From Marinibacterium profundimaris (GTDB taxonomy: Bacteria > Pseudomonadota > Alphaproteobacteria > Rhodobacterales > Rhodobacteraceae): 64,000 nt of DNA. The notes beneath the pieces were generated by a model, which made no database searches, had not been told where the DNA came from, and was given only the letters and a program-made list of their open reading frames with translations. Both the position numbers and the translations under genes were made by a program. Positions 560 through 34,284 of this stretch are shown one piece after another. Positions within the stretch are counted from its first letter, which is position 1. Every line of letters begins with the position of its first letter. The stretch covers positions 62,001-126,000 of the forward strand of contig NZ_AQQR01000007.1 in the NCBI RefSeq assembly GCF_002210095.1. Reading direction: 5' to 3'.

Positions 560-2407
560 ATGACGACCGATCTCTCGCGCCGGAGCAATGTCTCCGGAGC
601 CGAACCTCTGGCCGTTCTGGGCATGGCTCTTCGCCTTCCCGGCGCCCCCGATGAAGAGGCGCTCTGGCAGGTTCTGACCGCCGGTCTTCCGGTGAGCGGA
701 GCACCGCCCGAGGACCGCTGGGCCCTGCGTGAGGCCGAAAGACCGGTCCGCGCGGGATTCCTTCCCGATATCTTCGATTTCGATTGCGAGCTTTTCTCCG
801 TTTCCCCGAGAGAGGCCGCGCTTCTTGATCCGCAATTGCGGCTGTTCCTGGAATTGGCCTGGCTGGCCTGCGACGATGCGGGGCGCGGTGGCGCCGGGAT
901 CGCGGGCAGCCGATGCGGTGTCTACGTGGGCTGTTCGCGGGCCGATTACTTCGAGGCGATGGCCCCGCACCTGGACCAGGGCGACTACTTTGCCGGGCTG
1001 GGCAACAGCAAGGCGGCGATCGCCAACAGGTTGTCCACGGCGCTGGACCTGAGGGGGCCGTCGGTCTGCATGGACACGCTGTGTTCCTCCTCCTTCTCGG
1101 CGCTTCACGCCGCGGCCGTGGCGCTGCGCTCCGGCCAGGCCGAGATGGCTCTTGTCGGCGGGGTGAACTTCCTGATGTCGCCGCGTTATCTCTACGTGCT
1201 GCAGCGGTTCGATCTGCTTTCAAGCTCCGGACGGGCGCATCCCTTCGATGCTGCTGCCGGCGGGTTCTTTCCGGGCGAAGGCGGCGTCGTGCTGCTGCTG
1301 AAGCCGCTTTCGAAGGCGCTGGAAGATGGTGACCGGATCCGCGCCGTGTTGCGCGGCATCGGTCTGGAACACCAGGGAGCGGGCGCCGGGCTGAACGCGC
1401 CCGACGCAGGCGCGATTGCCGGGGTGATGCGCTCTGCGCTGGACCAGGCCGGTCTGGACGGCCCGGCGGTCGATACGCTGCATTGCATGGGCTCGGCCTC
1501 GGCCATGGGCGACGCCGCCGAGCTTGAGGCGATTTCGCTGGCCTACGGGCTGGACGACCGGCCGGGTGCGCCGCTGGCGGCCACCTGCGAGAAGGGCAGC
1601 ATCGGCCACCTGGAACCCGCCTCGGGCCTGGCGGCGCTCGCCACGGCGATCCTGGGGCTGGAGCGGGGCCGGCGGTTCCCGCTGGCCGGGCTACGCCAGC
1701 CGCGCCACGCCCCGCCGTGCGGGCTGCGGTTCGTCACCGGGGACGAGGCGGCGGCGCCCGCCACGCCCGACGCGCCGCGCCGGGTCGGCGTGACCTCGCT
1801 TGGCATGTCGGGCACCCATGGGCACGCCATCCTCGAGGCGGCCCCGGAGCGGGGCGGGGCGGCCGACGACGCGCCATGCACCGCGCCGCTGGTACTCTCG
1901 GCCCGCACGGCCGAGGATCTGCGGCAGCTCGCCGCCGCCTATGCCGGGGCGCTGCGGGATGACCACGTGTCGCTGAACGATATCTGTTTCACCGCCGCCA
2001 CCGGGCGCTGGCACGGCAGCTGGCGCGCGGTGGTGAGAGGCTCCGACCGGGCGGCGCTTACAGAAGGCTTGCGGCGGCTGGCCGAGGGCATCGACGAGCC
2101 CGTCAGGTCCCGCGCGGAGTCGTTGCGAAAGGGGGCCACCCCGGCGCCCTTCTCCGAGGCCGAGGGCGCGCCGGATCTGGCCGCGGCGCAGAGGTTCCTC
2201 AGCGGCCAGCCGGTGCCGTGGTCTGCGGTGTTCGGCCCCGGCGCCCGGCGCGTGGCCCTGCCGCCGACCCCGCTGCGGCGTGACACCCACCGATTTGCGC
2301 CGCCCCGGGATGGGACAGCGCCCGCGGCCGCATCCTCGGCTCCGCTTCATCCTGCGGCCCGGGCCAAGCCGTCGACCCATCCGTTGCTGCGGCGCAATCC
2401 ATCATGA
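560..2407 (+). CDS. Stand-alone PKS ketosynthase, divergent
   Basis: 615 aa. Residues about 15-430 form a type I PKS ketosynthase. The active-site cysteine is C175 (DTLCSSSFSA), with catalytic histidines H308 and H350 (GSIGHLEPASG), correctly spaced for the decarboxylative Claisen condensation. The usual HGTGT motif around the first histidine is changed to HCMGSAS, and the C-terminal GGTNAH signature reads SGTHGH. It is therefore intact in key residues but far from the typical family member. The last 180 residues are a linker with no recognisable acyltransferase, so an extender unit would have to come from elsewhere, or the KS only transfers a chain. It overlaps the next gene by ATGA, suggesting translational coupling and that the two proteins act as one split module. 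GAGAGACG precedes the ATG. Confidence 0.9.
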   Translation: MTTDLSRRSNVSGAEPLAVLGMALRLPGAPDEEALWQVLTAGLPVSGAPPEDRWALREAERPVRAGFLPDIFDFDCELFSVSPREAALLDPQLRLFLELAWLACDDAGRGGAGIAGSRCGVYVGCSRADYFEAMAPHLDQGDYFAGLGNSKAAIANRLSTALDLRGPSVCMDTLCSSSFSALHAAAVALRSGQAEMALVGGVNFLMSPRYLYVLQRFDLLSSSGRAHPFDAAAGGFFPGEGGVVLLLKPLSKALEDGDRIRAVLRGIGLEHQGAGAGLNAPDAGAIAGVMRSALDQAGLDGPAVDTLHCMGSASAMGDAAELEAISLAYGLDDRPGAPLAATCEKGSIGHLEPASGLAALATAILGLERGRRFPLAGLRQPRHAPPCGLRFVTGDEAAAPATPDAPRRVGVTSLGMSGTHGHAILEAAPERGGAADDAPCTAPLVLSARTAEDLRQLAAAYAGALRDDHVSLNDICFTAATGRWHGSWRAVVRGSDRAALTEGLRRLAEGIDEPVRSRAESLRKGATPAPFSEAEGAPDLAAAQRFLSGQPVPWSAVFGPGARRVALPPTPLRRDTHRFAPPRDGTAPAAASSAPLHPAARAKPSTHPLLRRNPS

Positions 2408-5400
2408 ATACCGAGCTGCGCGGAGAGATCCGGCAGGCGCCGGTCGAAGATGTCACGATGGGGCGGATCGCGGGGATCCTCGCCCACCTGTTGGGCCATG
2501 CGCCCGATGGACTGCGCAACCTCTGTCTCGATGGCGCCATGGGGCCGCTGGACGGGGCGTGGGTCACGGATGAAGCGGGCCGGCTTTGCCTGCGTGCGGC
2601 CGGTGGCGCGCTGATCGCGCGCGGCGTGCCGGGGGGCGAGGCGCCGGATTGGGCGCCGGCGCTGCCGGGCGGCGATGCCCTGCCGACGGCCGATTTCGCG
2701 GCCTGGGCGACCGAGACCGGGCTTTCGCCCGAGGCCGCCTTCGACCCCGCGCGCGACACGGTCCTGGGCGAACGGGCCGCCTGCGTGCCGCTGGCCGCCG
2801 GGCTGATGCCCGAGCAGATGATCCAGGCGGTGCTGGCGGCGGCCTTCGGACTGTCGGCGCTGGCCGAGGCACGGATGGAAGGCGCGGTGCTGCCACGTGC
2901 CATAGGCGGGCTGTGGCGCGCCGGGCGCCTGCCGGATGCGCCGCTCTGGGCCGTGGCCACCGCGCGCGAGGCGCATGTGGACGGGCGCGGCTGGATCGTC
3001 GACCTGGCCTTGGTGGATGACGCGGGGCAGGGCCGGCTCTGGCTGGACCATGTCCGCTTCGACCGGGCCGTCGGGGGAGCCGGGATGCTCGACCCGCTTG
3101 CGATCGACCCTGAGGCGCCGGGTCCGCTGCGCAAGCGGATCCTGGAGCAGCTGCAATCCCATGCCGCCTCCCTGCTGGGCCGGCAGGACATGCCCTGCGA
3201 CCTGCCGCTGGCCGAGATGGGGCTGGATTCCATCCTGGTGATCGATCTCTCGGTCGAGGTGGAGACCCGCATCGGCGTGGACCTGCCCTTCGACCGGCTC
3301 TCGCACGGGGCCACGCTGACGGACCTGGCCGAGATCGCCGCCGACACCGTGCTGCAGGCCGCGCGCGCGACACGGGATGGGGCGGAGGAGGACAGCCTGT
3401 TCGCCCGTCATGTGAACCCGGCGCTCGACCAGCGGCTGGCGCTGGCCGGTGTTGCGCGGGATTACGTGCGGGGCGCGGGGCACATGCTGCACGATGCCCA
3501 GGGCCGTGCCGTGATCGACTGCGTGGCGCAATACGGCGCGCTGCCCTTCGGCCACAATCCGCCCCGTATCTGGGAGGCGCTGACCCGGCTGCAGGCCGAG
3601 CAGGTGCCGGCCTTCATGTCGCTGTCGCCGCCGCCGCTGGCCGGACGGCTGGCTGAACGGCTGACCGGGCTGGCGCCCGAGGGGCTGGATACGGTCTTCT
3701 TCTGCACCAGCGGCGCCGAGGCGATCGAAGGCGCGATCAAGCTGGCGCGCTCCGCCACCGGGCGGCCGGGGATCCTGTCGACGACGGGCGGGTTCCACGG
3801 GCTGACGCTGGGCGCCATGTCGGCCACCGGGCGCAGCGCCTATCACGCGGGCTTCGGCGCGCCGGTGGCGGGGTTCGATCACATCCCCTACGGCGATCTC
3901 GACGCGCTGGAGGCAAAGCTGGCCGAGGCGGGAGAGACCATCGCCGCCTTCATCGTGGAGCCGCTGCAGGCCGAGGGCGGGATCGTGACCCCGCCCAAGG
4001 GCTACCTGGAGGGCGCCGCCGCGATCTGCCGCCGCCATGGCGTGCTGCTGGTCGCCGACGAGGTGCAGACCGGGCTGGGCCGGCTGGGCGCGCTTTTTGC
4101 CAGCGCGGCGGCACGGCCCGATATCGTGACGCTGGCCAAGGCGCTGGGCGGCGGGCTGGTGCCCATGGGTGCCGTGCTTTATCGCGGTGCGCTGCTGAAC
4201 GACGCCTTCGCGCTGCGCCATGGATCGACCTTCGGGTCGACCGCGCTGGGCGCGGCGGCGGGGCTGGCGACGCTGGAGGAACTGACCCGCGACGACCACC
4301 GCCTGCTGGCGGAGGTCGAGGTGAAGGGGCGGAAACTGTCCGCCGCGCTGCAGGCGATCGCCGGGCGGCATCCGAACGCGGTCCGCGCGGTTCGGGGTCG
4401 GGGGCTCTTGCAGGGGCTCGTGCTGGCGACGGGCCCTTCGGCCTATGCCAGCCCGGTGCTGAACCTGCTCTGCCAGTGGGAAGCCTTCGGCATGGTGCTG
4501 GCCTCCTACGTGCTGAACCGCCACGGCATCCGCGTCGCCCCGGCGCTGGCGGATGGCGCGGTGCTGAGGATCGAGCCGCCGCTGGATTGTCCCGAAAGCG
4601 TGATCGACGACGTGGCCGCGGCGCTGGAGGATCTGGCCGACACGCTGGAACGCGGCGATGCGCGGCGGCTTATGGCGCCGCTGCTGGGTATCGACCGCGC
4701 GCCTGATCCGGCCCCGGCCCGCCCGCGGCCGCCAGTGCCCGAGCGGCGCGCCGACGAGGGGCGCTTTGCCTTCCTCGTGCACCTGATGGGCCAGGACGAC
4801 CTGGCACGCTTCGACCCCGGCTTTGCCGGGCTCGACCTGTCGAACTTCGACCGCGCCCGCGCGCTTTTGACAAGCGAGATGCGCCCGGCCGTGATCACCG
4901 AGGTCGAGCTCGGCTCGGCCACCGGGGCGCGGGCCACCGGCGACGTGATCCTGGTGCCGCACACGGCGCGCGAGCTGATGGCCATGCGCCGCGAAGCGGC
5001 GGCCGAGGCGGTCGGCGCGGGTGTCGCGCTGGGTGTGGCGAGGGGGGCGGATATCGTCGGGCTGGGCGGCTTCACCTCGGTCGTTACCGATGCCGGGGCC
5101 GCCTTGACGGCGCCGGTGCCACTGACGAGCGGCAACACGCTGACCGCGATTTCGGCCGGGGACGGCGTGCTCGACGGGCTGGCGCGGATGGGCCGGGACC
5201 CGGCCAGGACGACGGTGCTGGTGATCGGCGGCTTCGGCTCGGTCGGGCGGGGCATCGTGATGTCGCTGGCCGACCGCGTGGGCCGGATCCTGGTCGCCGG
5301 GCGGCCCGAGCCCGAGGCCCGCGCGCTGGCGCGGCTGGACGCGCTGCGCGCCGAGGTCGCCAGCATGGAGGGCACGCCGCCGCCCTGGTCGGCGCGGGGC

Positions 5401-5868
5401 CGGATGGTGGCGGGCGAGGCGGAGGCAATTGGCCTCTCGCGCGACATGGGCGGCGACATGGGCCGGGCCGGCGCGGTGGTGGCGGCGACCAATGCGCTGG
5501 GGGCGCTGGTCGATCCGGCGCAGCTGCAGCCCGGCGCGGTGGTCAGCGACGTGTCGCGCCCGTTCAACCTGCCGCCGGACCTTGCGGCGCAGCGCCCCGA
5601 TCTCTGCGTGATCGAGGGGGGCGTGATCGCGCCGCAGGCACCCTTCGACATCGTCGTGGATTTCGGCACCCCGCGCCACTGCGCCTATGCCTGCATGGCC
5701 GAGACCATGCTGCTTGCGCTGATGAAGGAACCGGGCCGCCCGGCCCCGGTGCCCGGGCCGCAGCCCGGCGCGGCCGAACTGCGCCGCATTGCCGGGGCGG
5801 CCCGCGCCGCCGGGATGCGGACGGTGATTTCCCCCGATCCCGATCAGGACAGGGCCCGTGAATTGTGA
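2404..5868 (+). CDS. Half-DH / ACP / class III aminotransferase / AAR-like acyl reductase fusion
   Basis: 1154 aa with four parts. Residues 1-250 resemble only the C-terminal hotdog half of a PKS dehydratase (LPRAIGGLWRAG and following), without a catalytic HxxxG half. Residues 260-345 are an acyl carrier domain with phosphopantetheine serine S276 (GLDSI). Residues 365-770 are a class III PLP aminotransferase with Schiff-base lysine K579 (TLAKALGGG). Residues 785-1154 match cyanobacterial acyl-ACP reductase (AAR): LGGFTS near 887, TSGNTLTA, an NADPH loop IGGFGSVG near 940, and YACMAETML, whose Cys1097 aligns with the thioester-forming cysteine of AAR. The likely role is to release the ACP-bound chain as an aldehyde and aminate it. 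Domain calls are by eye; the product is inference. Confidence 0.85.
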   Translation: MNTELRGEIRQAPVEDVTMGRIAGILAHLLGHAPDGLRNLCLDGAMGPLDGAWVTDEAGRLCLRAAGGALIARGVPGGEAPDWAPALPGGDALPTADFAAWATETGLSPEAAFDPARDTVLGERAACVPLAAGLMPEQMIQAVLAAAFGLSALAEARMEGAVLPRAIGGLWRAGRLPDAPLWAVATAREAHVDGRGWIVDLALVDDAGQGRLWLDHVRFDRAVGGAGMLDPLAIDPEAPGPLRKRILEQLQSHAASLLGRQDMPCDLPLAEMGLDSILVIDLSVEVETRIGVDLPFDRLSHGATLTDLAEIAADTVLQAARATRDGAEEDSLFARHVNPALDQRLALAGVARDYVRGAGHMLHDAQGRAVIDCVAQYGALPFGHNPPRIWEALTRLQAEQVPAFMSLSPPPLAGRLAERLTGLAPEGLDTVFFCTSGAEAIEGAIKLARSATGRPGILSTTGGFHGLTLGAMSATGRSAYHAGFGAPVAGFDHIPYGDLDALEAKLAEAGETIAAFIVEPLQAEGGIVTPPKGYLEGAAAICRRHGVLLVADEVQTGLGRLGALFASAAARPDIVTLAKALGGGLVPMGAVLYRGALLNDAFALRHGSTFGSTALGAAAGLATLEELTRDDHRLLAEVEVKGRKLSAALQAIAGRHPNAVRAVRGRGLLQGLVLATGPSAYASPVLNLLCQWEAFGMVLASYVLNRHGIRVAPALADGAVLRIEPPLDCPESVIDDVAAALEDLADTLERGDARRLMAPLLGIDRAPDPAPARPRPPVPERRADEGRFAFLVHLMGQDDLARFDPGFAGLDLSNFDRARALLTSEMRPAVITEVELGSATGARATGDVILVPHTARELMAMRREAAAEAVGAGVALGVARGADIVGLGGFTSVVTDAGAALTAPVPLTSGNTLTAISAGDGVLDGLARMGRDPARTTVLVIGGFGSVGRGIVMSLADRVGRILVAGRPEPEARALARLDALRAEVASMEGTPPPWSARGRMVAGEAEAIGLSRDMGGDMGRAGAVVAATNALGALVDPAQLQPGAVVSDVSRPFNLPPDLAAQRPDLCVIEGGVIAPQAPFDIVVDFGTPRHCAYACMAETMLLALMKEPGRPAPVPGPQPGAAELRRIAGAARAAGMRTVISPDPDQDRAREL

Positions 5869-5888: not shown

Positions 5889-8800
5889 GTGAATTTGATC
5901 GAAGGACCCAGGACGTTGAGCGAACCCAGGATGACCGACGAGTATCTCTTTCCCGATCAGCCGCGGATGACGGGCATGACTGACATGCCGGACGACCCGC
6001 GCGGCAAGGCGACCGGGGGGCGGCCCGGCAAAGAGGCCGACGCCCAGGCGGCCCAGCTGTTTCCACTGAGCGAATTGCAGGCGGCCTATCTGACGGGCCG
6101 GCGCGAGGATCTGGTGCTGGGCGGGCGCGGATGCCAGCTTTACATGGAGATGAAGACGCCGCCGCTGGACCGGGACCGGCTTGCCCGGGCCTGGCAGGGG
6201 CTGATCGACCGTCATGACATCCTGCGCGTGGTGATCGAGGGCGCCGACGGCCAGCGTGTGCTGCCGCAGACGCCGAAGGTCACGCTGCCGGTGGTCGATG
6301 CGCGCGGCAAGCCCTGCGCCGAGGCCGAGGCGATGCTGGACACCCTGCGCGAGGAGCTGGCCTATCGTACCTTCGACCCGGCCCGCTGGCCGCTGTTCGA
6401 CGTGCGGCTCTACCGGGCCGACGGGTTCGACCGGGTCTGTTTCCTCTTTGACCTGATCGGTGCCGACGCGGCGACGGTGCATCACCTGATCGAGGATCTC
6501 TCGCGGGCCTATCGCGGCGATCCGCTGACCGAGCTGGCCGGGATCAGCTACCGCGAGGCGCGCATGACGCCCCGCCCGGAGAAGGCCGCGCGCGCCCTGG
6601 CCCGGGCCGAGGCCTACTGGCGCGAGGCGCTGCCGGATCTGCCCGCCGCGCCGGACCTGCCGCTGGTCCGTGACCCCGGCACGCTGGAGAAGTCGCGTTT
6701 CGTGCGGCACGAGGGGTTCCTGCCGCAGGCGGTGGCCGATGCCCTGGCGGCCCGCGCCAGGGCCCATGGCACGACCCTTCCGGCGGTGATGAACGCGGCC
6801 TTCGCCGAGGTGATCGCCGCCTGGTCGCGCAAGCGGCGGTTCCTGGTGAACATGCCGATCTTCGCGCCGCCTGCCACGGATGCGGACCGGCGCGTGCCGC
6901 TGGGCAATTTCACGTCCAACGTGCTGATCGACACCGATTGCACGGGGCCGGTCTTCCTCGACACCATCACGTCCATGACCCAGTCGGTGCGCCGGTCTCT
7001 GCGGCACCGGGCCTATTCCGGCCTGTCGGTGATGCGCGACCTGCGCATCGCGCGGGGCAGCGCCGAGGTCGGCGGGCTGGTGGCGCCGGTGGTGCTGACC
7101 AACCTGCTCGCGCATCAGGACGCCGTGGGGCGGGATACCGTTCTGGGCGAGCTTGACTGGGGCCTGAGCCAGACACCGCAGGTGATGCTGGACCACCAGA
7201 TCCTGCAGTCGAACCACGGGATCGCCTTCTACTGGGATCACATCCGGGAGCTTTTTGCCGAGGGGCTGGTGGCCGGGATGTCGACGGCGCATCTGCGCCT
7301 GCTGAACGCGCTGGCCGAAAGCGACGAGGCCTGGAAGCGACCCGCCGATTGCGTGCCCCCGGCGCAGATGGCCGTCCGGGCGGCGCGCAACGACACGGCG
7401 CGCGACATCGCGTCGGAGCTTCTGCACCGCGCGGTCTTTGACCGCGCTGAAACCACGCCGGACGCCCTGGCGCTGGTCGAGGGCGATACCGCGCTGAGCT
7501 ATGGCGAACTGGCCGGGCGCGCGCATGCGATGCGCGCGAAGCTGGAGGGCGCCGGGCTGACGCCCGGCGATGCCGCCGCGGTGATCCTGGAGCCGGGCGC
7601 CGCTCATGCGGCGTCGGTTCTGGGGGTGCTGGCGGCGGGCGGCGCCTACGCGCCGCTGGACCCCTCGGCGCCGCCGGACCGCCGCGCGCAGGAGCTGGCG
7701 CTCCTGCGGCCGAAGGTGATCGTCGCCACGCCGGAGCAGGCCGCGACGCTGCCCGAGGGCGGCTGGCGCGTGGTGCATCCCGACGACAGCGTGGCACCGG
7801 CCCGTCCGCTGGCCAAGCGCGCGCCGGGAGAGAGGGCCTATGTCATCTTCACCTCCGGCACCACGGGGACACCCAAAGGCGTGGTGATGACCCATGCGGC
7901 GGCCTGGAACACCTGCGCGGACCTCGTCGCGCGCTATGGGCTCGGTCCGGAAACGCGCGTGCTGGCGCTGAGCGCGCCGACCTTCGACCTGTCGGTCTTC
8001 GATCATTTCGGGATCTGGGCAGCCGGCGGCGCCGTGATCCATCCCGCGCCGGGACAGCGCACCGAACCGGCCGCCTGGCTGGAGGCGATCGAGCGCCACG
8101 GCGTCACCCTGTGGAACAGCGTGCCCGCGCTGATGGGCCTTGCCGTGCGCGAGGCGCAGAGGACCGGGCGCAAGCTGCCGGGGCTGACCCGCGTGATGAT
8201 GAGCGGCGACTGGATCCCGCCGGGCCTGCCGGCCGAGATCTGGCAGGTCGCGCCGCGCGCAGAGGTGGTCAGCCTGGGCGGCGCAACCGAGGCGGCGATC
8301 TGGTCGCTGCATCATCCGATCCGGTCCGAGGATACCGGCGGCGCCTCGATCCCCTACGGCGTGCCGCTGGCGAACCAGGGCCTGCATGTCCTGGACGACC
8401 GGCTGGAGCCGCGCCCCGACGGGGTGGAGGGCGAGCTTTTCATCAGCGGAGTGGGGCTGGCCGAGGGCTACCTCGGCGCGCCCGACCTGACGGCGCGGGC
8501 CTTCGTGACCCATCCGCGCAGCGGGCAGCGGCTGTATCGCACGGGCGACCTGGCCCGCGTGCGCACCGATGGCGAGGTGATCCTGCTGGGCCGGGTCGAC
8601 ACCCAGGTGAAGATCCAGGGCCTGCGGGTGGAAACCGGCGACGTGGCCCATGCGCTGGCGCAGGCGCCGGACATAGGCCAGGTGGTCGTGGATGCGATCG
8701 GCACGCAGTTCGGCAACAAGCGGCTGGTGGCCTTCGCCACCCTGGCCGAAGGCGCCGGTGGCGAAGGCGGCGGCGCCAGCCTGCCCGCCGCGCCGGAGGG

Positions 8801-9950
8801 TGACCTGAAGATCAGCTTCGCCCCCGATGGCGGCAAGGCGGCGCGCGCTGCCCTAGGGCAGCGCCGCTCGCCGCGCGGCTTCACCGCCGATGTCGTGCCC
8901 TTCGCCGATCTCGCCGCGCTGCTGTCGGTCTTCGTCGCCGGCGCGGTCGAGCGCGGGGTGAAACGGGCCTGGCCCTCGGCCAGCGCGCTCTACCCGGTGC
9001 GGGCCTATCTCTCGGTCGCGGGCGGCCGGGTCGAGGGGGTCGAGGCCGGATTCTACCACGTGGGCGCCGACGGTCAGCTGACGCGCGTCGCGGCCGATCC
9101 TCAAGCCGGGCCCGACCGGCATTTCCCGCATAACCGCGCCCTGGCCGAGGCGGCGGGCTTCGGCCTGATGCTTTTCGCCGACCGCGCGGCGATCGAGCCG
9201 AAATACGGCGCGCTGGCCCGGGATCTCTGCCTAATGGAAGCGGGCTATATCGGGCAGGCGCTGACCCAGGCGAGCCTGGACACCGCGTTGCGGATCTGCC
9301 CGATCGGGGCGATGGATGCCGGGCCCGCGGCCGACGCGGCGGGCTTCGGGACGAAGGATTTCCTGCACGGCTTCCTCGGCGGGGTGCCCGACGCGGTGAC
9401 CGAGGCCGTGGGTCCGCTCAGCCGCGATCCGGTGGAGGCGATGCGGGCCGAGGCGAAGACGCGGCTGCCGCGCTACCTCAGGCCGCATGATTACGTGATC
9501 CTGCCGGAATTCCCGCTGACCGCCAACGGCAAGATCGACCGCAAGGCGCTGGCACGGCTGGCCGATCCGGCCGCGCGCCGCAAGGCGCCCGAGCCCGCGC
9601 GCGGCGGCGGCGCCCACGAACAGGCGCTGCTGGTGCTGGCCGGTGAGCTGATGGATCTCGATGAGATCGACCTCGACACCGAGTTCTTCGCGCTTGGCGC
9701 GGATTCCGTGCAGCTGGTGGAACTGGCCAGCGAGGTGCAGCGGCGCTTCGAGGTGGAACTCGACGTGGCCGAGGTCTTCGACTACCCGACGCTTCGCGCG
9801 CTGGCCCGGCTGATCGCCGCCCGGCAGGCCCCTGCGGAGGAGGCCGCCGGCAGCGACGACCAGCAGGCGCCGCAGGATCCCGCGAGCCGCGCCATGGCCG
9901 CCGCGAAAGCGCGCGGCGAACGCCGCCGCAGCCGGGGGCGCCGGCCATGA
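5889..9950 (+). CDS. NRPS module Cy-A(Ox)-PCP, predicted cysteine-to-thiazole
   Basis: 1353 aa. Residues about 55-480 are a condensation-type domain with DLIGAD at 188-193, the DxxxxD motif of heterocyclisation (Cy) domains rather than HHxxxDG. The adenylation domain starts near 515, with core A3 FTSGTTGTPKG at about 654. Pocket residues read by motif alignment give D-L-F-N-M-S-L-I-W, close to the cysteine code DLYNLSLIW. Between A8 (KIQGLRVE) and A10 (NGKIDRKAL, about 1213) lies an inserted FMN nitroreductase-like oxidase (RRSPRGF, EAGYIGQAL), as in epothilone EpoB. The PCP serine is S1273 (GADSVQL). Expected chemistry is condensation and cyclisation of Cys, then oxidation to thiazole. The GTG start at 5889 has a weak ribosome site; ATGs at 5931 or 5967 are alternatives. 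Confidence 0.93.
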   Translation: MNLIEGPRTLSEPRMTDEYLFPDQPRMTGMTDMPDDPRGKATGGRPGKEADAQAAQLFPLSELQAAYLTGRREDLVLGGRGCQLYMEMKTPPLDRDRLARAWQGLIDRHDILRVVIEGADGQRVLPQTPKVTLPVVDARGKPCAEAEAMLDTLREELAYRTFDPARWPLFDVRLYRADGFDRVCFLFDLIGADAATVHHLIEDLSRAYRGDPLTELAGISYREARMTPRPEKAARALARAEAYWREALPDLPAAPDLPLVRDPGTLEKSRFVRHEGFLPQAVADALAARARAHGTTLPAVMNAAFAEVIAAWSRKRRFLVNMPIFAPPATDADRRVPLGNFTSNVLIDTDCTGPVFLDTITSMTQSVRRSLRHRAYSGLSVMRDLRIARGSAEVGGLVAPVVLTNLLAHQDAVGRDTVLGELDWGLSQTPQVMLDHQILQSNHGIAFYWDHIRELFAEGLVAGMSTAHLRLLNALAESDEAWKRPADCVPPAQMAVRAARNDTARDIASELLHRAVFDRAETTPDALALVEGDTALSYGELAGRAHAMRAKLEGAGLTPGDAAAVILEPGAAHAASVLGVLAAGGAYAPLDPSAPPDRRAQELALLRPKVIVATPEQAATLPEGGWRVVHPDDSVAPARPLAKRAPGERAYVIFTSGTTGTPKGVVMTHAAAWNTCADLVARYGLGPETRVLALSAPTFDLSVFDHFGIWAAGGAVIHPAPGQRTEPAAWLEAIERHGVTLWNSVPALMGLAVREAQRTGRKLPGLTRVMMSGDWIPPGLPAEIWQVAPRAEVVSLGGATEAAIWSLHHPIRSEDTGGASIPYGVPLANQGLHVLDDRLEPRPDGVEGELFISGVGLAEGYLGAPDLTARAFVTHPRSGQRLYRTGDLARVRTDGEVILLGRVDTQVKIQGLRVETGDVAHALAQAPDIGQVVVDAIGTQFGNKRLVAFATLAEGAGGEGGGASLPAAPEGDLKISFAPDGGKAARAALGQRRSPRGFTADVVPFADLAALLSVFVAGAVERGVKRAWPSASALYPVRAYLSVAGGRVEGVEAGFYHVGADGQLTRVAADPQAGPDRHFPHNRALAEAAGFGLMLFADRAAIEPKYGALARDLCLMEAGYIGQALTQASLDTALRICPIGAMDAGPAADAAGFGTKDFLHGFLGGVPDAVTEAVGPLSRDPVEAMRAEAKTRLPRYLRPHDYVILPEFPLTANGKIDRKALARLADPAARRKAPEPARGGGAHEQALLVLAGELMDLDEIDLDTEFFALGADSVQLVELASEVQRRFEVELDVAEVFDYPTLRALARLIAARQAPAEEAAGSDDQQAPQDPASRAMAAAKARGERRRSRGRRP

Positions 9951-12900
9951 CCGACCTGTCGCTTTACGGGGACAGCGCCATCGCGATCACCGGGATGGCG
10001 GGCCGCTTTCCCGGGGCCGACAGTGTTGAGGCGCTCTGGCCCTTGCTGTCCGAGGGGCGCTCGGGCCTGCGCCAGCTCAGCCGCGAGGAGCTGCTGGCCT
10101 CGGGCGTGGCCGAGCGCGTGCTGGACGATCCGAACTACATCCCCGTCTGCGCGCCGATCGCGGATTTCGACATGTTCGACGCCGGGTTCTTCCGGATCAC
10201 CCCGGCCGAGGCGGCCGGCACCGATCCGCAGCAGCGGCTGTTCCTGCAGCATGCCTGGCAGGCGCTGGAGCAATCGGGCCATGCCAGCGGGCGGGATCAT
10301 CTGCAGATCGGGGTGTTCGGTGGCGCCAGCCTGTCAAGCTACCTGACCGAGAACATCCTTCCGACCATCGACCGCACCGCGTCGACCAACATCATGGGGG
10401 CCTTTGTCGGCAACGACAAGGATTACCTCGCTACATCAGTGGCCTACCGGCTGGACCTGCGCGGCCCGGCGGTCACGGTGCAGACCGCCTGTTCCACCGG
10501 GCTGGTCGCGGTGCACATGGCGGCGCAAAGCCTGCTGTCGGGCGAATGCGACCTGGCCTTGGCGGGCAGCGTGACGGTTCGCGCGCCGCACCTGGTGGGG
10601 TATCGCCACCAGCCGGGCGGGGTGATGGCGGCGGACGGGGTCTGCCGCCCCTTCGACCGGACCGGGACGGGCACCGTCTTCGGCAACGGCGTGGGCGTCT
10701 TCGCCCTGCGCCGGCTGGAGGACGCGCTGGCCGATGGCGATCCGATCCGCGCAGTGGTGCAGGGCACGGCGATCAACAACGACGGCGCGCAGAAGGTCGG
10801 CTTTGTCGCGCCCAGCGTCGAGGGCCAGATCACCGTCATTGCCGAGGCGCTCAGCGTGGCGGGATGCCGCCCCGAAGAGATCGACGTGATCGAGGCGCAC
10901 GGCACCGGAACCCGCATCGGCGACGCGATCGAGCTGCGGGCGCTGGCCCAGGTCTTCGGCGTCGCGGCGCGGCCGGACGGGCCGTTGCGCGTGGGGTCGA
11001 TCAAGGGGAACATGGGCCACCTGGAAACCGCGGCGGGGGCGGCGGCGCTTGCCAAGGCGGTTCTGATGCTGGAACGCCGCGCGGTGCCGCCCAGCCTGAT
11101 GGCGGGCGATCCGATCCCCGAGCTGGACGAGGCTCCGGCGCTGGGGCTTGCGCGCGGGATGGAGGACTGGGCCGAGCGTGCCGGGCCGCGCCGCGTCGGG
11201 GTCAGCAGCTTCGGCATCGGCGGCACCAACGCGCATCTGGTCCTGGCCGAGGCCCCGGCAGAGGCCGAGGTGCCGCGCGGCCAGATCCCGCCGGCCGATC
11301 CCACCGCCTGCTACATGTCCCTGACCGCGCGCAGCGAAGCCAGCTTGCGCGCCATGGCCGGGCAGGCCGCCGCCTGGCTGCGCGCCGCGCCCGAACGACC
11401 CTGGTCCCGGCTGATGGCCGACCTTGGGCGCGGCCGGCCCGCGCTGCCGGTGACGCTGGCCGTCACCGGGCGCAGCCGGGCCGAGATCGCCCAACGGCTG
11501 GAGGACACCGCCGCCGGACAGGTCGATCCGCTGGCGGCCGTGGGCCACGCACCGGAGGCGCTGGTACTGGGCGGGCTCTTTGCCGGGCAGGGCGCGCGGC
11601 TGTCCGGCGCCGGGGCGCAGGCCCATGCCGCCAACCCCGCCTTCGGCGCGGCGCTTGAGACCGCGGCGCAGGTGCTGGCGCCCTACGATGTGCCGGTGAT
11701 GGACGTGCTGGTGAAGGGCGCCTTCGAGCCGGTGGAGCCGGGACAGGTGCAACCGCTCTGCGTGGCGCTGCAAGTCGCCGGCGCGGCGCTCTGGGCGGCC
11801 GAGGGCGTGCAGCCGAAGGTCGTGGTGGGCCATTCGATCGGAGAGATCTCGGCCGCCGTGGCCGCCGGTCTGCTGACGATGGACAGCGCCCTGGTCTTCG
11901 CGGCGCGGCGCGGCCTTGCGATGCAGCGGCTCTGTGCCGAGGGCGCGATGCTGGCGGTGCCGCAGGACGGCGCGCGGGCGCTGGAGATGGGTTTGCCCGA
12001 TCTCGACATCGCGGCCCGCAACGGGCCCGACGCGCTGGTTCTGGCCGGCCTGCCCGGGGCGGTGGCCGAGGCCGAAACCCGCCTGACCGCCGCCGGCCTG
12101 CGCGCGATCCGCCTGCCCGTCGCCCGGGCCTACCATTCGCGCATGATGGCCCCCGCGCTTGACGCCGTGGCCGAGGCCGCGACGGTGCTGGAGCCCGGAC
12201 CGGGGCAGGGCACCCTGGTCTCTACCCGCACCGGCGCGGTGCTGGATCCCGACCGTCTCACGGACCCCGCCTATTGGCGCGGCCACGCCGCCGAGCCGGT
12301 GCTGCTGCACCAGGCGCTGCGCGAGGCTGCCGGTCTCGGTACGACCCATTGGCTGGAGCTGGGCCCCGAGCGGCAGCTGGCGCCCTACGTCCGCGTCGTG
12401 GGCGAGATGCCGGTGATCCATGGCCTGCAGGAGGGCGGCACGCCGGACGAGGCCCTGGCCGCCGCCCGGGTGAAGCTGCGCGCCGCCGGCCTGCCGCTGC
12501 GCACCTTCGCGCGGCAAGCCGACGCGCCGGGCCGCGCTCATCCCGCGCCGGTCTATGTCTTCGACCGCCAGCGCCACTGGATCGAGGCCCCGCGCGCCGA
12601 GGCGCCCGCCGCCCCCGCCGATGAGTTGGTGCTGGAGCTTGGCCCCGGTTCCGATCCCTACCTGGCCGATCACCGGCTCTCGGGCCGGGTCGTTCTGCCC
12701 GGTGCGCTCTGGGTCGAACTGGCTCTGGCCTGCGCCCGCGAGGCCTTTGGCGAGGACGGACAGATCGAGCAGCTGGTCCTGCATCGCCCGGTCTCCCTGG
12801 CCGATGGCGCCAATGCGCGGATCCTGATGTCAAGCCGGACCGACGGCGGCCGCGCCCGGTTAGAGGTCGCGCTGCAGGGCGAGGGAGAGGCGGCCCCGCT

Positions 12901-15900
12901 GCCCATCGCCTCGGCCGGCCTGCGCCGGGGCACGCCCGGGCGCCGTCCCGTGGCCCCGGCGCCCACCGCGGATGCACAGGTGGTGGACGGCAATGAATTC
13001 TACGACGGTCTCGCCGCCGTGGGCCTGAACTATGGCCCCGCCTTTCGCGGCGTGACGCAGTTGCACTATGGTGCCGGCGCGGCCCACGGCGTGATCCGCG
13101 TGCCCGACGAGGTCGCCGAAGACTGCGCCATCTACCACGTCCATCCGGCCGTGATGGACGCCATCCTGCACGTGGCTGCCGGCGTCTTCCTCGATACCGG
13201 GGCGCAGGGCGGGCAGGCCTATCTGCCGTCGGCCATCGGCACGCTGGAGGCCTTTGCCGCGATCGACCCGGGCCAGCCGCTGGCGGTGAGCGCCTGGCGG
13301 ACCGGGGCCAGCGAGGACGAAGCCCAGGTCTTTGTCGACCTGCTGGTGACGCAGGGCGCCGACGTGGTGCTGCAGATCCGCGACCTGACGCTGACCCGGC
13401 TTGGCGCCGCGCAGATGACCGGGCCGGTGACGGGCGCGGCGCGCCGTGTCGCCACCCACTGGATCCCTTCCGACCCCGCGCCGGGCGGCGCCGGGCCCGA
13501 TGTGCTGATCGCCGAGCCCGACGCGCCGCTGGCGGAGCCGGTGGCCGCTGCCTGCGCCTGCGTTTGCGCGCCCTACGACGGGCAGCTGCCGGCCGGGGCC
13601 ATCCATCACGTGATCCTCGCGCCCGAGGCCGGCAAGGCGCAGGATGCCGAAGCCCTGTCCCATGTGGCGCACCGGCTGCTGGACCAGGTGACGCGCCTGG
13701 CCGCCATCGCCCCACCGGGCAGCCGGGTCGACGTCATCACGCGGGGGGCCAGCGATATGCCCGGCGCCGCGCGCGATCCCGGTGCGGCGGGGATCTGGTC
13801 CATGCTGGGCGCGCTTGCCGCCGAATACACCGGCACGCTGGAGCTGCGGCGCATCGACCTGGCGCTGACGCCGTCGAAGGCCGATCTGGACCTGCTCGCG
13901 CGGCTTCTCGCCGCCGACCCGGCCGAGAACCGATGCGCGATCCGCGAGGGCCAGCTTATGCTGGCGCGGATGGAAGACGTGGCGCCGGACCCGGTGACGC
14001 CGGAAGAGCCCAAGGACGCCGCCCTGCGGCTGGAAACCCCCGAGCCGGGGCAGATGCAGGCCCTGGGCTACCGCAGCCTGCCGCGTCCCGTGCCCGGCCC
14101 CGGGCAGGTGCTGATCCGGGTCGAGGCCGCCTCGCTCAACTTCCTCGATGTGCTGGCCGCACTCGGGCGGCGGCCGGACCTGCCGTCCGGGCCGCTCAGC
14201 GCGCTCGGCTCGGAATGCGCGGGCGTGGTCGAGGCCACCGGGCCTGGCGTCGACGGCTGCGCGCCCGGCGCGCGGGTCGTCGCGCTCTGCGCCGGGGCAC
14301 TGGCCAGCCACGTGCTGGTCGATGCGCGGTTTGTCCGCCCCACGGGCGATCTGTCCCCGGCCGAGGCCGCGGCGCTGCCGGTGGTCTATGCCACGGCGAT
14401 CCATGCGCTGCGCCACGTCGCGCGGCTGCAGGCGGGGGAGACGGTGCTGATCCATTCCGCCGCCGGGGGCGTGGGCCTTGCCGCGATGGAGGTTGCGCGT
14501 GCCTGCGGGGCGCGGATCCTCGCCACCACCAGCAGTGAAGAGAAACGCGCGCTGCTGCTGGACCGGGGCGCCGAGGCTGTCCTTGCCTCGCGCGATGACA
14601 GTTTCGTCGCGGGCGTGCTAGAGGCGACGGAGGGCGAGGGCGTCGACGTTGTGATCAACCTGCTGGCCGGTGACCTGATGGCGGCAAGCATCGACTGTCT
14701 CGCACCCTATGGCCGCTTCGTCGACATCACCAAGCGCGACATCTACGAGGGCGGGTCCCTGCCGCTGCAGGCCTTCCGCGCGAACCTCAGCTTCGCGGCG
14801 GTGGACCTGGCGCGGATGTATTCCGAACGGCCGGTGATGCTGTCGGCCCTGCTGGACGAGGTGTTCGAGGGTGTGGGGCAGGGGCTCTATGCCCTGCCGC
14901 CGGTGGAGATCGTGCCGGCGACAGATACCGTACCGGCCTTCCTGAAGATGGCGCGGGCGCAGCATGTCGGCAAGCTGGTCGTGGACCTGACCGAGCCGCC
15001 CGAGCCGGTGACGCGCAGTCTCGCGGGGCTGCGGCCGGATGCGGCCTGCGTGATCAGCGGCGGGCTTGGCGGGCTGGGGCTGGCCGTGGCGCGCTACCTC
15101 GCGCAGCTGGGCGCGCGGCACCTCGTGCTGCTGGGCCGCTCCGCCCCGGGGGCCGAGGCGCGCGCGGCGATCCGTGCGCTGCAATTGTCCGGCGTGACGG
15201 TCGACGTTGTGGCGTCCGACATCACCGATGCCGGGGGCCTGCGCGCGGCGATGGCGCCGGTGCTGGAGACCACGCGGATCGGTGGGCTCTTTCACCTCGC
15301 CGGGGTGCTGGAGGACCGCCGCGCCGACAGTGTCGAGCCGGAGGATTTCGCCCGGGCCGCGGCGCCGAAACTGGACGGGCTGGCGCATCTTGCCGGGCTG
15401 CTGGATCCGGAGACGCTGGATCATTTCGTGGTCTTCTCCTCGCTCAGCGCCCACATGCCGCCGCCGGGGCAGGCCGCCTATGCCGCCGCCAACGGCGCGA
15501 TGGAGGCGCTGGCCACGCGGCTGGGCGCCCGGGTGATCGCCTGGGGCGGCTGGGGCGAGGCGGGGATGGCGGCCCGCTCCGGTGCGGCGGATCTGGGCGC
15601 GCGGATCGGCCTGCCGCCGATGGCCCCGGCCCATGCATTGCAGGCGCTGGGGGCGGCGATGATCGACCGGCGCCCGGACGTGATCGTCACCGGGCTTGAC
15701 CCCGTGGCGCTGCAGAAGGGCGCACCGGCCCTGGCGGCCGAGCGCTACCTGGAGGGCATCGTCGAGGCCGCGCCGGAGGCGGCGCCGGCCGAGGTGGCGC
15801 TGGCGCTCGAGGGGCTGGAGCCCGAGGCGCGGGTGGAGCGGCTGACGGGCTTCATCCTCGACACGCTGGCCGACGTGCTGAGCCTGCGCGCCGATCAGCT

Positions 15901-16090
15901 TGATCCGGAGGTGAAATTCCTGCAGCTGGGGCTGGAGTCCCTCACCGCGCTGGAAATGGCCGCGCGGATCGAACGGGGGCTGGGCATCGCGCTGAACCCG
16001 ACACTGATCGAAACCCACGACAGCCCCGCCCTGCTGGCCGCCGCCCTGGTGAAACAGCTCTTTCCCGAGGCGCGCCGCGAGGCGGGCTGA
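9947..16090 (+). CDS. Fully reducing type I PKS module KS-AT-DH-ER-KR-ACP
   Basis: 2047 aa, starting within the ATGA that ends the NRPS gene. The ketosynthase has C182 (TACSTG), EAHGTGT and NMGHLE. The acyltransferase has GHSIGE with S630 and RAYHSRMM at the specificity site, closer to malonyl (HAFH) than methylmalonyl (YASH) types. The dehydratase has H909 (DHRLSGRVVLPG) and D1071 (HPAVMDAIL). The enoylreductase covers about 1365-1680 with SAAGGVGLAA. The ketoreductase covers about 1690-1870 with GGLGGLG, FSSLSA and Y1845 (AAYAAAN), with LED where B-type domains have LDD. The ACP serine is S1998 (GLESL). All reducing domains look intact, so it should add saturated two-carbon units. No terminal thioesterase is present. 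It may work once or iteratively; the sequence does not say. Confidence 0.95.
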   Translation: MTDLSLYGDSAIAITGMAGRFPGADSVEALWPLLSEGRSGLRQLSREELLASGVAERVLDDPNYIPVCAPIADFDMFDAGFFRITPAEAAGTDPQQRLFLQHAWQALEQSGHASGRDHLQIGVFGGASLSSYLTENILPTIDRTASTNIMGAFVGNDKDYLATSVAYRLDLRGPAVTVQTACSTGLVAVHMAAQSLLSGECDLALAGSVTVRAPHLVGYRHQPGGVMAADGVCRPFDRTGTGTVFGNGVGVFALRRLEDALADGDPIRAVVQGTAINNDGAQKVGFVAPSVEGQITVIAEALSVAGCRPEEIDVIEAHGTGTRIGDAIELRALAQVFGVAARPDGPLRVGSIKGNMGHLETAAGAAALAKAVLMLERRAVPPSLMAGDPIPELDEAPALGLARGMEDWAERAGPRRVGVSSFGIGGTNAHLVLAEAPAEAEVPRGQIPPADPTACYMSLTARSEASLRAMAGQAAAWLRAAPERPWSRLMADLGRGRPALPVTLAVTGRSRAEIAQRLEDTAAGQVDPLAAVGHAPEALVLGGLFAGQGARLSGAGAQAHAANPAFGAALETAAQVLAPYDVPVMDVLVKGAFEPVEPGQVQPLCVALQVAGAALWAAEGVQPKVVVGHSIGEISAAVAAGLLTMDSALVFAARRGLAMQRLCAEGAMLAVPQDGARALEMGLPDLDIAARNGPDALVLAGLPGAVAEAETRLTAAGLRAIRLPVARAYHSRMMAPALDAVAEAATVLEPGPGQGTLVSTRTGAVLDPDRLTDPAYWRGHAAEPVLLHQALREAAGLGTTHWLELGPERQLAPYVRVVGEMPVIHGLQEGGTPDEALAAARVKLRAAGLPLRTFARQADAPGRAHPAPVYVFDRQRHWIEAPRAEAPAAPADELVLELGPGSDPYLADHRLSGRVVLPGALWVELALACAREAFGEDGQIEQLVLHRPVSLADGANARILMSSRTDGGRARLEVALQGEGEAAPLPIASAGLRRGTPGRRPVAPAPTADAQVVDGNEFYDGLAAVGLNYGPAFRGVTQLHYGAGAAHGVIRVPDEVAEDCAIYHVHPAVMDAILHVAAGVFLDTGAQGGQAYLPSAIGTLEAFAAIDPGQPLAVSAWRTGASEDEAQVFVDLLVTQGADVVLQIRDLTLTRLGAAQMTGPVTGAARRVATHWIPSDPAPGGAGPDVLIAEPDAPLAEPVAAACACVCAPYDGQLPAGAIHHVILAPEAGKAQDAEALSHVAHRLLDQVTRLAAIAPPGSRVDVITRGASDMPGAARDPGAAGIWSMLGALAAEYTGTLELRRIDLALTPSKADLDLLARLLAADPAENRCAIREGQLMLARMEDVAPDPVTPEEPKDAALRLETPEPGQMQALGYRSLPRPVPGPGQVLIRVEAASLNFLDVLAALGRRPDLPSGPLSALGSECAGVVEATGPGVDGCAPGARVVALCAGALASHVLVDARFVRPTGDLSPAEAAALPVVYATAIHALRHVARLQAGETVLIHSAAGGVGLAAMEVARACGARILATTSSEEKRALLLDRGAEAVLASRDDSFVAGVLEATEGEGVDVVINLLAGDLMAASIDCLAPYGRFVDITKRDIYEGGSLPLQAFRANLSFAAVDLARMYSERPVMLSALLDEVFEGVGQGLYALPPVEIVPATDTVPAFLKMARAQHVGKLVVDLTEPPEPVTRSLAGLRPDAACVISGGLGGLGLAVARYLAQLGARHLVLLGRSAPGAEARAAIRALQLSGVTVDVVASDITDAGGLRAAMAPVLETTRIGGLFHLAGVLEDRRADSVEPEDFARAAAPKLDGLAHLAGLLDPETLDHFVVFSSLSAHMPPPGQAAYAAANGAMEALATRLGARVIAWGGWGEAGMAARSGAADLGARIGLPPMAPAHALQALGAAMIDRRPDVIVTGLDPVALQKGAPALAAERYLEGIVEAAPEAAPAEVALALEGLEPEARVERLTGFILDTLADVLSLRADQLDPEVKFLQLGLESLTALEMAARIERGLGIALNPTLIETHDSPALLAAALVKQLFPEARREAG

Positions 16091-16236
16091 GGCGGGCGGG
16101 ACAGATTGTCCCCGATCCGCGAAAGGCGGGGGATCCGGGCCCCGATTGTTCCCGGGAGGCCGCAGTATTCCGGTGGCCGTGCCCGGGCCCGGCCAAGGGC
16201 GCTTGCGCCATGGGGCGGGGGCGGCAGGATGGCGGC
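16091..16236. promoter_or_regulatory. Intergenic region with perfect palindrome and GATTG/TCCCG motif copies
   Basis: 146 bases between the PKS stop and the first exopolysaccharide-side gene. GGGACAGATTGTCCC at 16098-16112 is a perfect 6-base inverted repeat with a 3-base centre. It lacks a T tract, so an operator is as likely as a terminator. Two segments here, 16104-16127 and 16140-16154, closely match sequence upstream of the sugar transferase gene at 29942-29969 (20 of 24 and 14 of 15 bases by hand alignment). This is a plausible promoter or regulator site for the following gene. Confidence 0.45.
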
Positions 16237-17799
16237 ATGACCCGCCTTTCCGATATTGCCCCGGACGGCCCTGCCGCGCGGCGGCTCTGCCTTGCCGTCG
16301 TGCTGCCCGACGGCTGGCGCGACGACCCCGGTTGCGCGCGGATGCTTGAGCGGCTTGCCACCTCGGACACCCTGCGGATCGTCGCGCTGTCGCACGCGCC
16401 AAGGGCGGAGCCGGACGTTCAGGGCGGTCTGCTGGGCCGGGTGCTCGCGCTCGAGGCACGCGGCGTGGACCGGTGGCCCGGTGTCGCGACGCCCGCGTTC
16501 GATGCGCTCCTGCCCGATCTGCCGGAGATCGGCGCGGAGCACGTCCATGCCGTGGACGTTGTGCTCGACCTTGCCGGAACCGCCGATACAGCGCTGGCGG
16601 ACCGGGCGGCGCAGGGGCTCTGGCGGCTGAGCACCAGCGCACCGCTGGCCGGGGTGGCCGAGGCGATGGCCGGCGCCGCCGAGACCCGGGTGCGGCTGTG
16701 CGGCCTCGACCGCGCCGATGGCACATGGCGCGAGCTGGCGCAGGCCAGCTATGACACGAAGTTCCTGGCCACCCGCAACCGCAGCTTTCAGCGGGAAAAG
16801 GCGGTCCAGCTGGCAGAACATGAACTGGCGCGGCGTGCCGCCGGGGCCCGGGACCGTCCGGCGCGCCCTGACGGGCAGGCGGACGGCGAGCCGGTCTCTG
16901 ATCCGGGGCTGGCGGGCTATGCCCGGCGCGCCGGGCTTCAGGTGGCGCGACGGGTGGCCGACAGGCTGCGGGCGAAGGTGGGCGGCCGGCCCGGGCGGTT
17001 CTGTCTGCGGCTTGCGCAGGGCACGGCGCTGGAATTCGACCCGGCCCAATCGGTCGAGTTCGACGCCCCTGCCGGCCAGTACTGGGCGGATCCCTTCCTC
17101 ATCGACCACCCAACCGGGCTGCATGTCTTCTTCGAGGTCTACGACTATGCCGCCGACCGCGGCCACATCGCCGCCGGACGGCTCGACGGCGACAGGCTGG
17201 TTCCGCTCGGCCCGGTGCTGACGCCCGACTACCACCTCTCCTATCCTTTCGTCTTCGCCCATGACGGAGAGGTCTTCATGCTGCCCGAAAGCCACCAGTC
17301 CGGGCGGCTGGAGCTGTGGCGCGCGGTCGAGTTTCCGCTGAGATGGGAGCTGCACCGCACCGCGCTGGAGGGCACGCCCTGCGCCGACAGTGCGCTGGTC
17401 GAGCAGGACGGGCAATGGTGGCTCTTTACCAATATCTGCCGCGACAGCTTTGGCGATTTCTGTTCCGAGCTGCACGTCTTCCGCGTCGACGGGCCCGGGA
17501 TGACCCGGGTGGAGCCGCATCCGCTGAACCCGGTCGTCCTGGGCTCGCGCGTGGCGCGGGGCGGCGGGCGCGTGTTCGAAGAGGACGGGCGGCTCTATCG
17601 CGTGGCCCAGGACAATTCGCACGGCGTCTATGGCTACGGGCTGTGCCTGATGGAGATCGAATGCCTCTCTCCCCGGGACTACCGCGAGCGGCTGGTGCGG
17701 CATGTCACGCCGGACACCGCCGGGATCGAGGGGCTGATCGGACTGCATCACGTGGATGCGCTGAACGGGCGGGTGATCTTCGACGTGCGGCGGCGCTAG
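16237..17799 (+). CDS. GINT1_N-like beta-propeller protein with degenerate formyltransferase-like N-terminus
   Basis: 520 aa. The C-terminal half (about residues 280-520) has the aromatic repeats WADPFLI, VFFEVYDY, SYPFVF, MLPESHQSG and WWLFTN. These are seen in the five-bladed propeller domain named after the N-terminus of a plant glucosamine inositolphosphorylceramide transferase, which in bacteria often follows a formyltransferase-like domain. The N-terminal 200 residues follow that layout (VVLDLAGTAD) but I see no catalytic formyltransferase motif, so this half looks degenerate. No signal peptide. It adjoins an exopolysaccharide cluster, where such proteins may modify or bind sugars, but a specific reaction cannot be given. 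The ATG at 16237 is preferred over one at 16210 because AGGA lies 8 bases ahead. Confidence 0.6.
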   Translation: MTRLSDIAPDGPAARRLCLAVVLPDGWRDDPGCARMLERLATSDTLRIVALSHAPRAEPDVQGGLLGRVLALEARGVDRWPGVATPAFDALLPDLPEIGAEHVHAVDVVLDLAGTADTALADRAAQGLWRLSTSAPLAGVAEAMAGAAETRVRLCGLDRADGTWRELAQASYDTKFLATRNRSFQREKAVQLAEHELARRAAGARDRPARPDGQADGEPVSDPGLAGYARRAGLQVARRVADRLRAKVGGRPGRFCLRLAQGTALEFDPAQSVEFDAPAGQYWADPFLIDHPTGLHVFFEVYDYAADRGHIAAGRLDGDRLVPLGPVLTPDYHLSYPFVFAHDGEVFMLPESHQSGRLELWRAVEFPLRWELHRTALEGTPCADSALVEQDGQWWLFTNICRDSFGDFCSELHVFRVDGPGMTRVEPHPLNPVVLGSRVARGGGRVFEEDGRLYRVAQDNSHGVYGYGLCLMEIECLSPRDYRERLVRHVTPDTAGIEGLIGLHHVDALNGRVIFDVRRR

Positions 17800-17817
17800 G
17801 CGCGCGATCGCCTCGGC

Positions 17818-19233: not shown

Positions 19234-19242
19234 CGACCGGCC

Positions 19243-20577: not shown

Positions 20578-20589
20578 TCTTCACACCTT

Positions 20590-28766: not shown

Positions 28767-28885
28767 GCAACCCCTCCGCACCACTTCACGCGTTCAAGCG
28801 GCGGCGGGCTGCCCCACCGCCGATCCTCAGCTTACCTGTCCGGGCTAAATCTGGACACAAATGGTGGCCGCAATAAGGAAGCCGC
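28767..28885. promoter_or_regulatory. Divergent promoter region with TGTCC-N11-GGACA repeat
   Basis: A 119-base gap between divergent acetyltransferase and GT2 genes. TGTCC at 28837-28841 and GGACA at 28853-28857 form an inverted repeat separated by 11 bases around an AT-rich centre, a plausible regulator site. AAGGA lies about 6 bases before the ATG at 28886. No convincing -35/-10 pair was found. Confidence 0.4.
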
Positions 28886-32242: not shown

Positions 32243-32288
32243 CCCATTCACCGCCGCGCACCCGCGCGGCCCATTTCGGAAAGCCACG

Positions 32289-34282: not shown

Positions 34283-34284
34283 CC

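Follow-up and report, generated by a model that had tools for sequence, protein, structure and literature searches.

The window analysed here is a 64,000-nucleotide stretch of the Marinibacterium profundimaris genome (contig NZ_AQQR01000007.1, positions 62,001 to 126,000), and the subject of this study is a gene on its plus strand, at 2404–5868, that encodes a 1154-residue fusion of a degenerate dehydratase (DH), an acyl carrier protein (ACP), a class III aminotransferase and a thioester reductase of the acyl-ACP reductase (AAR) type, as assigned by Pfam, NCBIfam, PDB sequences and Foldseek.

Domains of the fusion protein and their known counterparts

The reading frame is uninterrupted, contains Pfam domains and has a third-position GC of 0.89, and a spurious or chance open reading frame (ORF) was rejected on these grounds. 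The domain make-up, proposed in an earlier sequence-only reading of the locus, was confirmed, with S276, K579 and Cys1097 exactly where that reading had placed them. On scanning the whole protein against Pfam (E up to 0.01), two families were found, PP-binding (aa 249–310, E 1.4e-8) and Aminotran_3 (aa 352–673, E 1.6e-78). The ACP spans aa 246–315 (3139–3348), with its phosphopantetheine serine S276 at 3229–3231. The aminotransferase, delimited by Pfam, NCBIfam and alignment, spans aa 335–760 (3406–4683), with the pyridoxal phosphate (PLP) lysine K579 at 4138–4140; K579 and D552 are conserved in all 35 aligned aminotransferase domains. The N-terminal part, aa 1–245 (2404–3138), is a polyketide synthase (PKS) dehydratase remnant of which the second half alone is recognisable. 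The half-dehydratase of the sequence-only reading stood when residues 1–279 were scanned alone (PS-DH at aa 152–221, profile positions 84–158, E 3.3e-5) and did not appear in the whole-protein scan; no HxxxGxxxxP motif was seen in the remnant by eye, and the predicted fold of aa 1–328 was uninformative (pLDDT 40.5) and was discarded. We regard the assignment as weak but plausible.

The reductase domain spans aa 786–1120 (4759–5763), as judged by NCBIfam, PDB sequences, alignment and fold, and carries TSGN (908–911), GGFGSVG (942–948) and Cys1097 (5692–5694). Residues 780–1154 matched no Pfam family above the cut-off, the weak matches being of Rossmann type (E 0.016–0.018). Among NCBIfam models, the same residues matched PigE best (117.8 bits, E 4.9e-34) and then the cyanobacterial AAR equivalog TIGR04058 (50.8 bits, E 1.5e-13, below its cut-off of 449.7 bits), followed only by shikimate dehydrogenase (E 0.074) and an oxidoreductase model of the short-chain dehydrogenase/reductase (SDR) type (E 0.12). 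The PDB sequence search likewise returned PigE (4ppm, E 9.4e-21) and AAR (6jzu, E 6.7e-11), and in its alignment the AAR cysteine falls on Cys1097, which is invariant (as C312 of the domain alignment) across 28 of 28 aligned domains. The AlphaFold model (mean pLDDT 84.7) has an AAR fold: AAR chains take every Foldseek rank from 1 to 7 (E 9.5e-23 at best; TMq 0.70–0.74), ranks 8–16 are chains of the carmabin TAD (E 1.3e-16 to 1.2e-14), and the remaining rows of the 50 best have TM-scores of at most 0.34. A profile of 28 relatives found PigE at E 2.6e-54, AAR at E 5.5e-40 and TAD at E 1.4e-7. Conventional TR reductase domains are of the SDR type; this alternative was rejected, with no SDR thioester-reductase match in Pfam or NCBIfam (E up to 10) or among the 50 best Foldseek rows. 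Collectively, the model search, cysteine alignment and predicted structure support a C-terminal domain of the AAR type and not of the SDR type, in agreement with the sequence-only reading; neither of the outcomes that would have refuted that reading, a better match to an unrelated dehydrogenase family or a misaligned Cys1097, was observed.

For the whole fusion, the best curated family is PigE (NF053554, 439.9 bits; next family 260.9), at a score below the 850-bit cut-off for that equivalog. The protein nevertheless has the features of a TamH/PigE-type reductive aminase, with an aminotransferase and an AAR-type reductase in one chain and the PLP lysine and reductase cysteine kept. PtTamH of tambjamine YP1 biosynthesis in Pseudoalteromonas tunicata is, like the window protein, a class III aminotransferase followed by an AAR-like NAD-dependent reductase with a catalytic cysteine, and in assays of purified enzymes supplied with NADH and L-Glu it converts TamA-bound C12 acyl-ACP to the C12 amine (PMC9594044); it thereby takes an acyl group from an ACP to a primary amine, as proposed for the window protein. 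This comparison follows the published description of PtTamH rather than an alignment. PtTamH differs in its length (941 aa), in having, as described, no fused ACP or DH remnant, and in acting off any PKS or nonribosomal peptide synthetase (NRPS) line on a TamA-loaded fatty-acyl substrate. PigE of prodigiosin biosynthesis, which reduces and then aminates a thioester (PMC8341465), also holds both domains in a single protein and is the nearest curated family, but in the reverse order, with the AAR domain first. Since the chemistry of PtTamH and PigE is known, the fusion is of a known kind, and the sequence-only reading, which did not recognise such a fusion from described systems, was mistaken on this point.

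Other systems share single traits with the window protein. Cyanobacterial AARs (6jzy and others) have the same fold, cysteine and nucleotide-binding glycines but are stand-alone enzymes of alkane biosynthesis, whereas the carmabin TAD (9e4s, 9e4u, 9e4x, 9e50 and 9e56; PDB titles) is an AAR-like fold in an NRPS pathway, with NAD bound and a cysteine, that has no aminotransferase and matches far more weakly in sequence; it is believed to serve terminal amide formation (PMC10949194). Reduce-then-aminate chain release is described for coelimycin and argimycin, in which a TR domain and a separate aminotransferase release the polyketide (PMC5300972), and for myxochelin MxcL (PMC3870968); unlike in the window, the reductase in these systems is a conventional TR domain and the aminotransferase a separate protein. 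In the open-access literature searched, a release unit combining an AAR-type reductase and an aminotransferase on a PKS/NRPS line was not found.

The operon and its relatives in other genomes

Four plus-strand genes overlap or abut one another (560–2407, 2404–5868, 5889–9950 and 9947–16090). The first encodes a free-standing ketosynthase of 615 aa without an acyltransferase domain (Pfam; C175, H308 and H350 by eye), and its stop overlaps the ATG of the fusion gene by 4 bases. The gene at 5889–9950 encodes an NRPS module in which Pfam found condensation, AMP-binding and peptidyl carrier protein (PCP) domains plus a nitroreductase-like stretch (E 6.3e-4, below the Pfam cut-off), and which we read as cyclization (Cy), adenylation (A) with an oxidase (Ox) insert, and PCP. 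Its nearest solved chains include 6lta, bacillamide synthetase BmdB and dihydroaeruginoic acid synthetase, with linear gramicidin synthetase scoring similarly; by eye, the Cy motif is DLIGAD and the A-domain pocket code DLFNMSLIWK, which we take to be a cysteine code. The last gene, at 9947–16090, encodes a 2047-aa reducing PKS module with ketosynthase, acyltransferase, DH, enoylreductase, ketoreductase and ACP domains (Pfam). A terminal thioesterase or SDR-type reductase domain was absent from the Pfam and NCBIfam families of these four proteins. Divergently, on the minus strand, a type II thioesterase gene (264 aa, Pfam E 2.6e-23) starts within 1–385 and extends upstream as L009:15591-16385, and beyond the window the same strand carries genes for a two-part GNAT protein (L009:14539-15594, weak Pfam GNAT matches at E 3.2e-5) and a HemN-like radical SAM protein (L009:13053-14513, best model HutW with 156.6 bits against a cut-off of 400). 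The operon is probably a hybrid PKS/NRPS assembly line whose Cys-type Cy-A-Ox-PCP module would contribute a thiazole.

Two further features of the surroundings are recorded here. A bacteriophytochrome histidine kinase gene (L009:9943-12231) lies upstream of the radical SAM gene, and on the other side, at 16210–36000, the window holds genes for a flippase, glycosyltransferases, a Wzz/Wzc-like protein and a GINT1_N protein, an apparent exopolysaccharide locus.

A scan of genome contigs returned at least 591 matching stretches, of which 577 were confirmed and 80 kept; together with 8 plasmid loci (from 15 matching plasmid records), these gave 88 AAR loci. An aminotransferase shares the AAR ORF in 74 of them (72 with the domain order of the window protein, 2 with that of PigE; 9 of the 74 with a truncated aminotransferase match) and is missing from that ORF in 14, and most of the single-ORF loci have no PKS within reach of the probes used. 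Aminotransferase-AAR fusions are therefore common, and the survey for similar fusions suggested by the sequence-only reading showed the arrangement not to be unusual. Of 398 genomes sampled from the phylum of the window, 7 have an AAR match at E up to 1.1e-20; a strong match was found in 1 of 385 in the class sample, the window's own, and a match in 1 of 3 in the genus; weak partial matches in another 106 of the 398 (E 9.5e-7 to 1e-3) probably reflect general Rossmann similarity. In the Planctomycetota, 19 of 294 genomes have the domain (E up to 1e-15).

Four loci from Planctomycetota and Hydrogenedentota place an aminotransferase-AAR protein at the end of an assembly line, with a TubC_N docking domain where the window protein has its ACP. 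TubC_N was found by Pfam at the N-terminus in L028 (Hydrogenedentota, E 5.7e-17) and L049 (Planctomycetota, E 7.7e-16), and the N-termini in L070 and L073 are the same by eye. In L049, L070 and L073 the end of an NRPS gene, and in L028 that of a PKS gene, touches or overlaps the aminotransferase-AAR gene. The three NRPSs are 36–39% identical to that of the window cluster over 740–930 aa (E 2e-162 to 2e-149), and in L028 a cut A-domain stretch matches it at E 3e-21; in L049 and L070 the module is Cy-A-PCP-Ox, with the nitroreductase domain after the PCP and not within the A domain. The four loci are monophyletic in the 44-row AAR tree (SH-aLRT 98); the window pairs there with L078 (93), each of the two on a long branch. 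L078, from the Myxococcales, encodes an A-PCP protein and a PKS with the same domain string as that of the window, followed by the aminotransferase-AAR protein. By comparison, L021 (Paraburkholderia) and L080 (Ramlibacter) carry an ACP-aminotransferase-AAR gene beside an AMP-ligase-like gene, without PKS or NRPS.

All four docking loci contain a homologue of the window cluster's GNAT protein (E 1e-45 to 7e-43), directly behind the aminotransferase-AAR gene in L028, L049 and L073 but at a distance of 8.5 kb, likewise downstream, in L070, and each of these genomes has a single GNAT match, located in the cluster. The thioesterase has a homologue in L070 only (E 7e-35), and the radical SAM protein, found among the four in L049 only (E 3e-19), was rejected as a shared cluster gene. 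The GNAT protein is rare: in the window's phylum it was found in 2 of 398 genomes, the window's own (E 4e-246) plus one stray match (E 5e-4), and with the L070 protein as query 6 of 294 Planctomycetota genomes matched, 5 of them below 1e-20. Two of these five also have an AAR domain, that of L070 and G1019, in which the GNAT gene directly precedes an AAR-aminotransferase fusion in PigE order with no PKS/NRPS match within the 34 kb fetched; no AAR match was found in the other GNAT-bearing genomes, G1010, G840 and G858. Conversely, the GNAT protein was not found in the genomes of the aminotransferase-AAR loci L078, L080, L051 and L085. Because each occurs without the other, the GNAT protein was rejected as an exclusive marker, and the link to the reductive aminase is suggestive but not exclusive. 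As far as the literature searched shows, what looks new is the placement on an assembly line, the version with a docking domain and the GNAT protein common to these clusters; the thiazole-type NRPS module, the GNAT gene and the docking versions had all been overlooked in the sequence-only reading.

Long N-terminal extensions of aminotransferase-AAR proteins were rejected as further assembly-line fusions, with five of the six examined (L183-L187, L196) resembling out-of-frame high-GC text that holds no Pfam domain before the aminotransferase; the sixth, L185 from the Planctomycetota, has an AMP-binding domain there, within one ORF (L185:7816-12144). The extra N-terminus of L080 upstream of its ACP was judged spurious. 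On a Leisingera plasmid the fusion runs the other way, from aminotransferase-AAR into an AMP-ligase-like domain (L015:13603-17790), and in L105 and L106, from the window's phylum, the AAR domain is C-terminal in proteins of about 700 aa with a different N-terminal half. In three Rhodobacterales plasmid loci, a stand-alone aminotransferase-AAR gene lies beside one for a VPLPA-CTERM protein (an exosortase-type sorting signal) of about 230–245 aa, the three being mutually similar (L016:16410-17120, L017:9137-9871, L022:13414-14106); in L016 an XrtD gene is also found at a distance of 4.5 kb. L015 and L018, the two remaining Rhodobacterales loci fetched, have no such neighbour. The amine-making enzyme may be connected with exosortase sorting. 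In the Bacillota loci L054, L030 and L052, a stand-alone aminotransferase-AAR protein of about 880 aa is followed by a DegT-type aminotransferase-like gene (by eye) and, further along, a diaminopimelate-epimerase-like gene, with no PKS, NRPS or ligase seen.

Proposed chain release and its alternatives

The fusion protein is probably a chain-terminating subunit that would convert an ACP-bound thioester to an aldehyde and the aldehyde to a primary amine, released from the line. We favour this reading because the reductase has the AAR fold and cysteine, PigE is the best family, PtTamH performs the corresponding chemistry, and the operon is contiguous and lacks a terminal thioesterase or SDR-type reductase among the families found, and because elsewhere, in the docking loci and L078, aminotransferase-AAR genes follow assembly-line genes. 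Aldehyde release followed by amination was also the proposal of the sequence-only reading, and it remains the best account of the AAR-type domain, its aligned cysteine and a lysine kept in every aligned aminotransferase. The growing chain would be loaded on S276 of the ACP and transferred to Cys1097, where NAD(P)H would reduce it to the aldehyde; the adjoining PLP domain would use K579 to aminate the aldehyde, and the primary amine would leave the line, the DH remnant being presumably non-catalytic. With lower certainty, the route might run through the ketosynthase that lacks an acyltransferase, and the product might be a polyketide-thiazole amine, which the GNAT protein may N-acylate.

The aminotransferase could instead act first, on a beta-keto acyl-ACP supplied by the free ketosynthase, as in MycA-type systems, giving a beta-amino acyl-ACP that the AAR domain would release as a beta-amino aldehyde. 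The ketosynthase directly upstream and the split module without a ketoreductase or working DH fit such an order, and embedded Aminotran_3 domains that act on polyketide carbonyls are described (PMC3870968). However, PigE leads the families by a wide margin (its score including the AAR part), and an aldehyde is the better-fitting substrate because aminotransferase and AAR share an ORF in 74 of 88 loci, most of them without a PKS in probe reach; we consider this order unlikely. A small chance also attaches to the view that, instead of releasing a finished chain, the protein supplies an amine as a building block for condensation or acylation elsewhere, which is the fate of the TamH amine in tambjamine. 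This view draws on L021 and L080, on the AMP-ligase-like gene that adjoins aminotransferase-AAR in 6 of 20 Planctomycetota loci, and on G1019 with its GNAT gene directly before the fusion, but Pfam and NCBIfam showed no AMP-ligase-like gene in the window operon, and the gene overlaps or abuts a PKS or NRPS gene end in all four docking loci. Finally, the AAR-fold domain might perform another NAD-linked termination, like the carmabin TAD, whose pathway ends in a primary amide. The TAD chains stand next in the Foldseek ranking, and the hectoramide paper connects the terminal element with amide formation (PMC10949194), but AAR chains rank above them, the profile favours PigE and AAR over TAD, and an aminotransferase is fused to the domain, which leaves this alternative highly improbable.

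Several observations weigh against terminal release as amine. The gene order of the operon yields no colinear path, and its first ketosynthase lacks an acyltransferase. TubC_N is not among the Pfam families of the window protein (a TubC_N search of the window's own genome gave no match, but also matched 0 of 14 controls), and the tail beyond Cys1097 differs from the conserved SxG...HGF tail of the relatives. The substrates shown for TamH and PigE are fatty-acyl type thioesters rather than thiazolyl chains. The window branches are long (1.97 in the AAR tree, 1.67 in the aminotransferase tree), the aminotransferase tree (36 rows, no MycA-type domains included) leaves the window unplaced, and the window could be joined to the docking group alone, to that group and L078 together, to PigE or to the ACP-ligase pair without rejection by an approximately unbiased (AU) test (four placements, p 0.63 to 0.80). 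These trees are compatible with recruitment to assembly lines once or several times.

More tentatively, and with more doubt than confidence, we suggest that AAR-type reduction and amination is a release module that can dock onto PKS/NRPS lines and was recruited repeatedly, and that the window genome, Planctomycetota and Hydrogenedentota share an undescribed cluster family, in which a Cys-type Cy-A-Ox module, a PKS, the aminotransferase-AAR protein and an amine-acylating double-GNAT protein would make N-acylated thiazolyl-alkylamines. If terminal release holds, this would be a new type of assembly-line release, transferable by a docking domain, in which one subunit carries out both steps to a primary-amine end. 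Aminotransferase-AAR together with the GNAT protein would offer a sequence handle by which little-studied bacteria, Planctomycetota among them, could be searched for amine-ended polyketide/thiazole products, and the finding would correct the view of AAR-type reductases as confined to cyanobacterial alkane synthesis.

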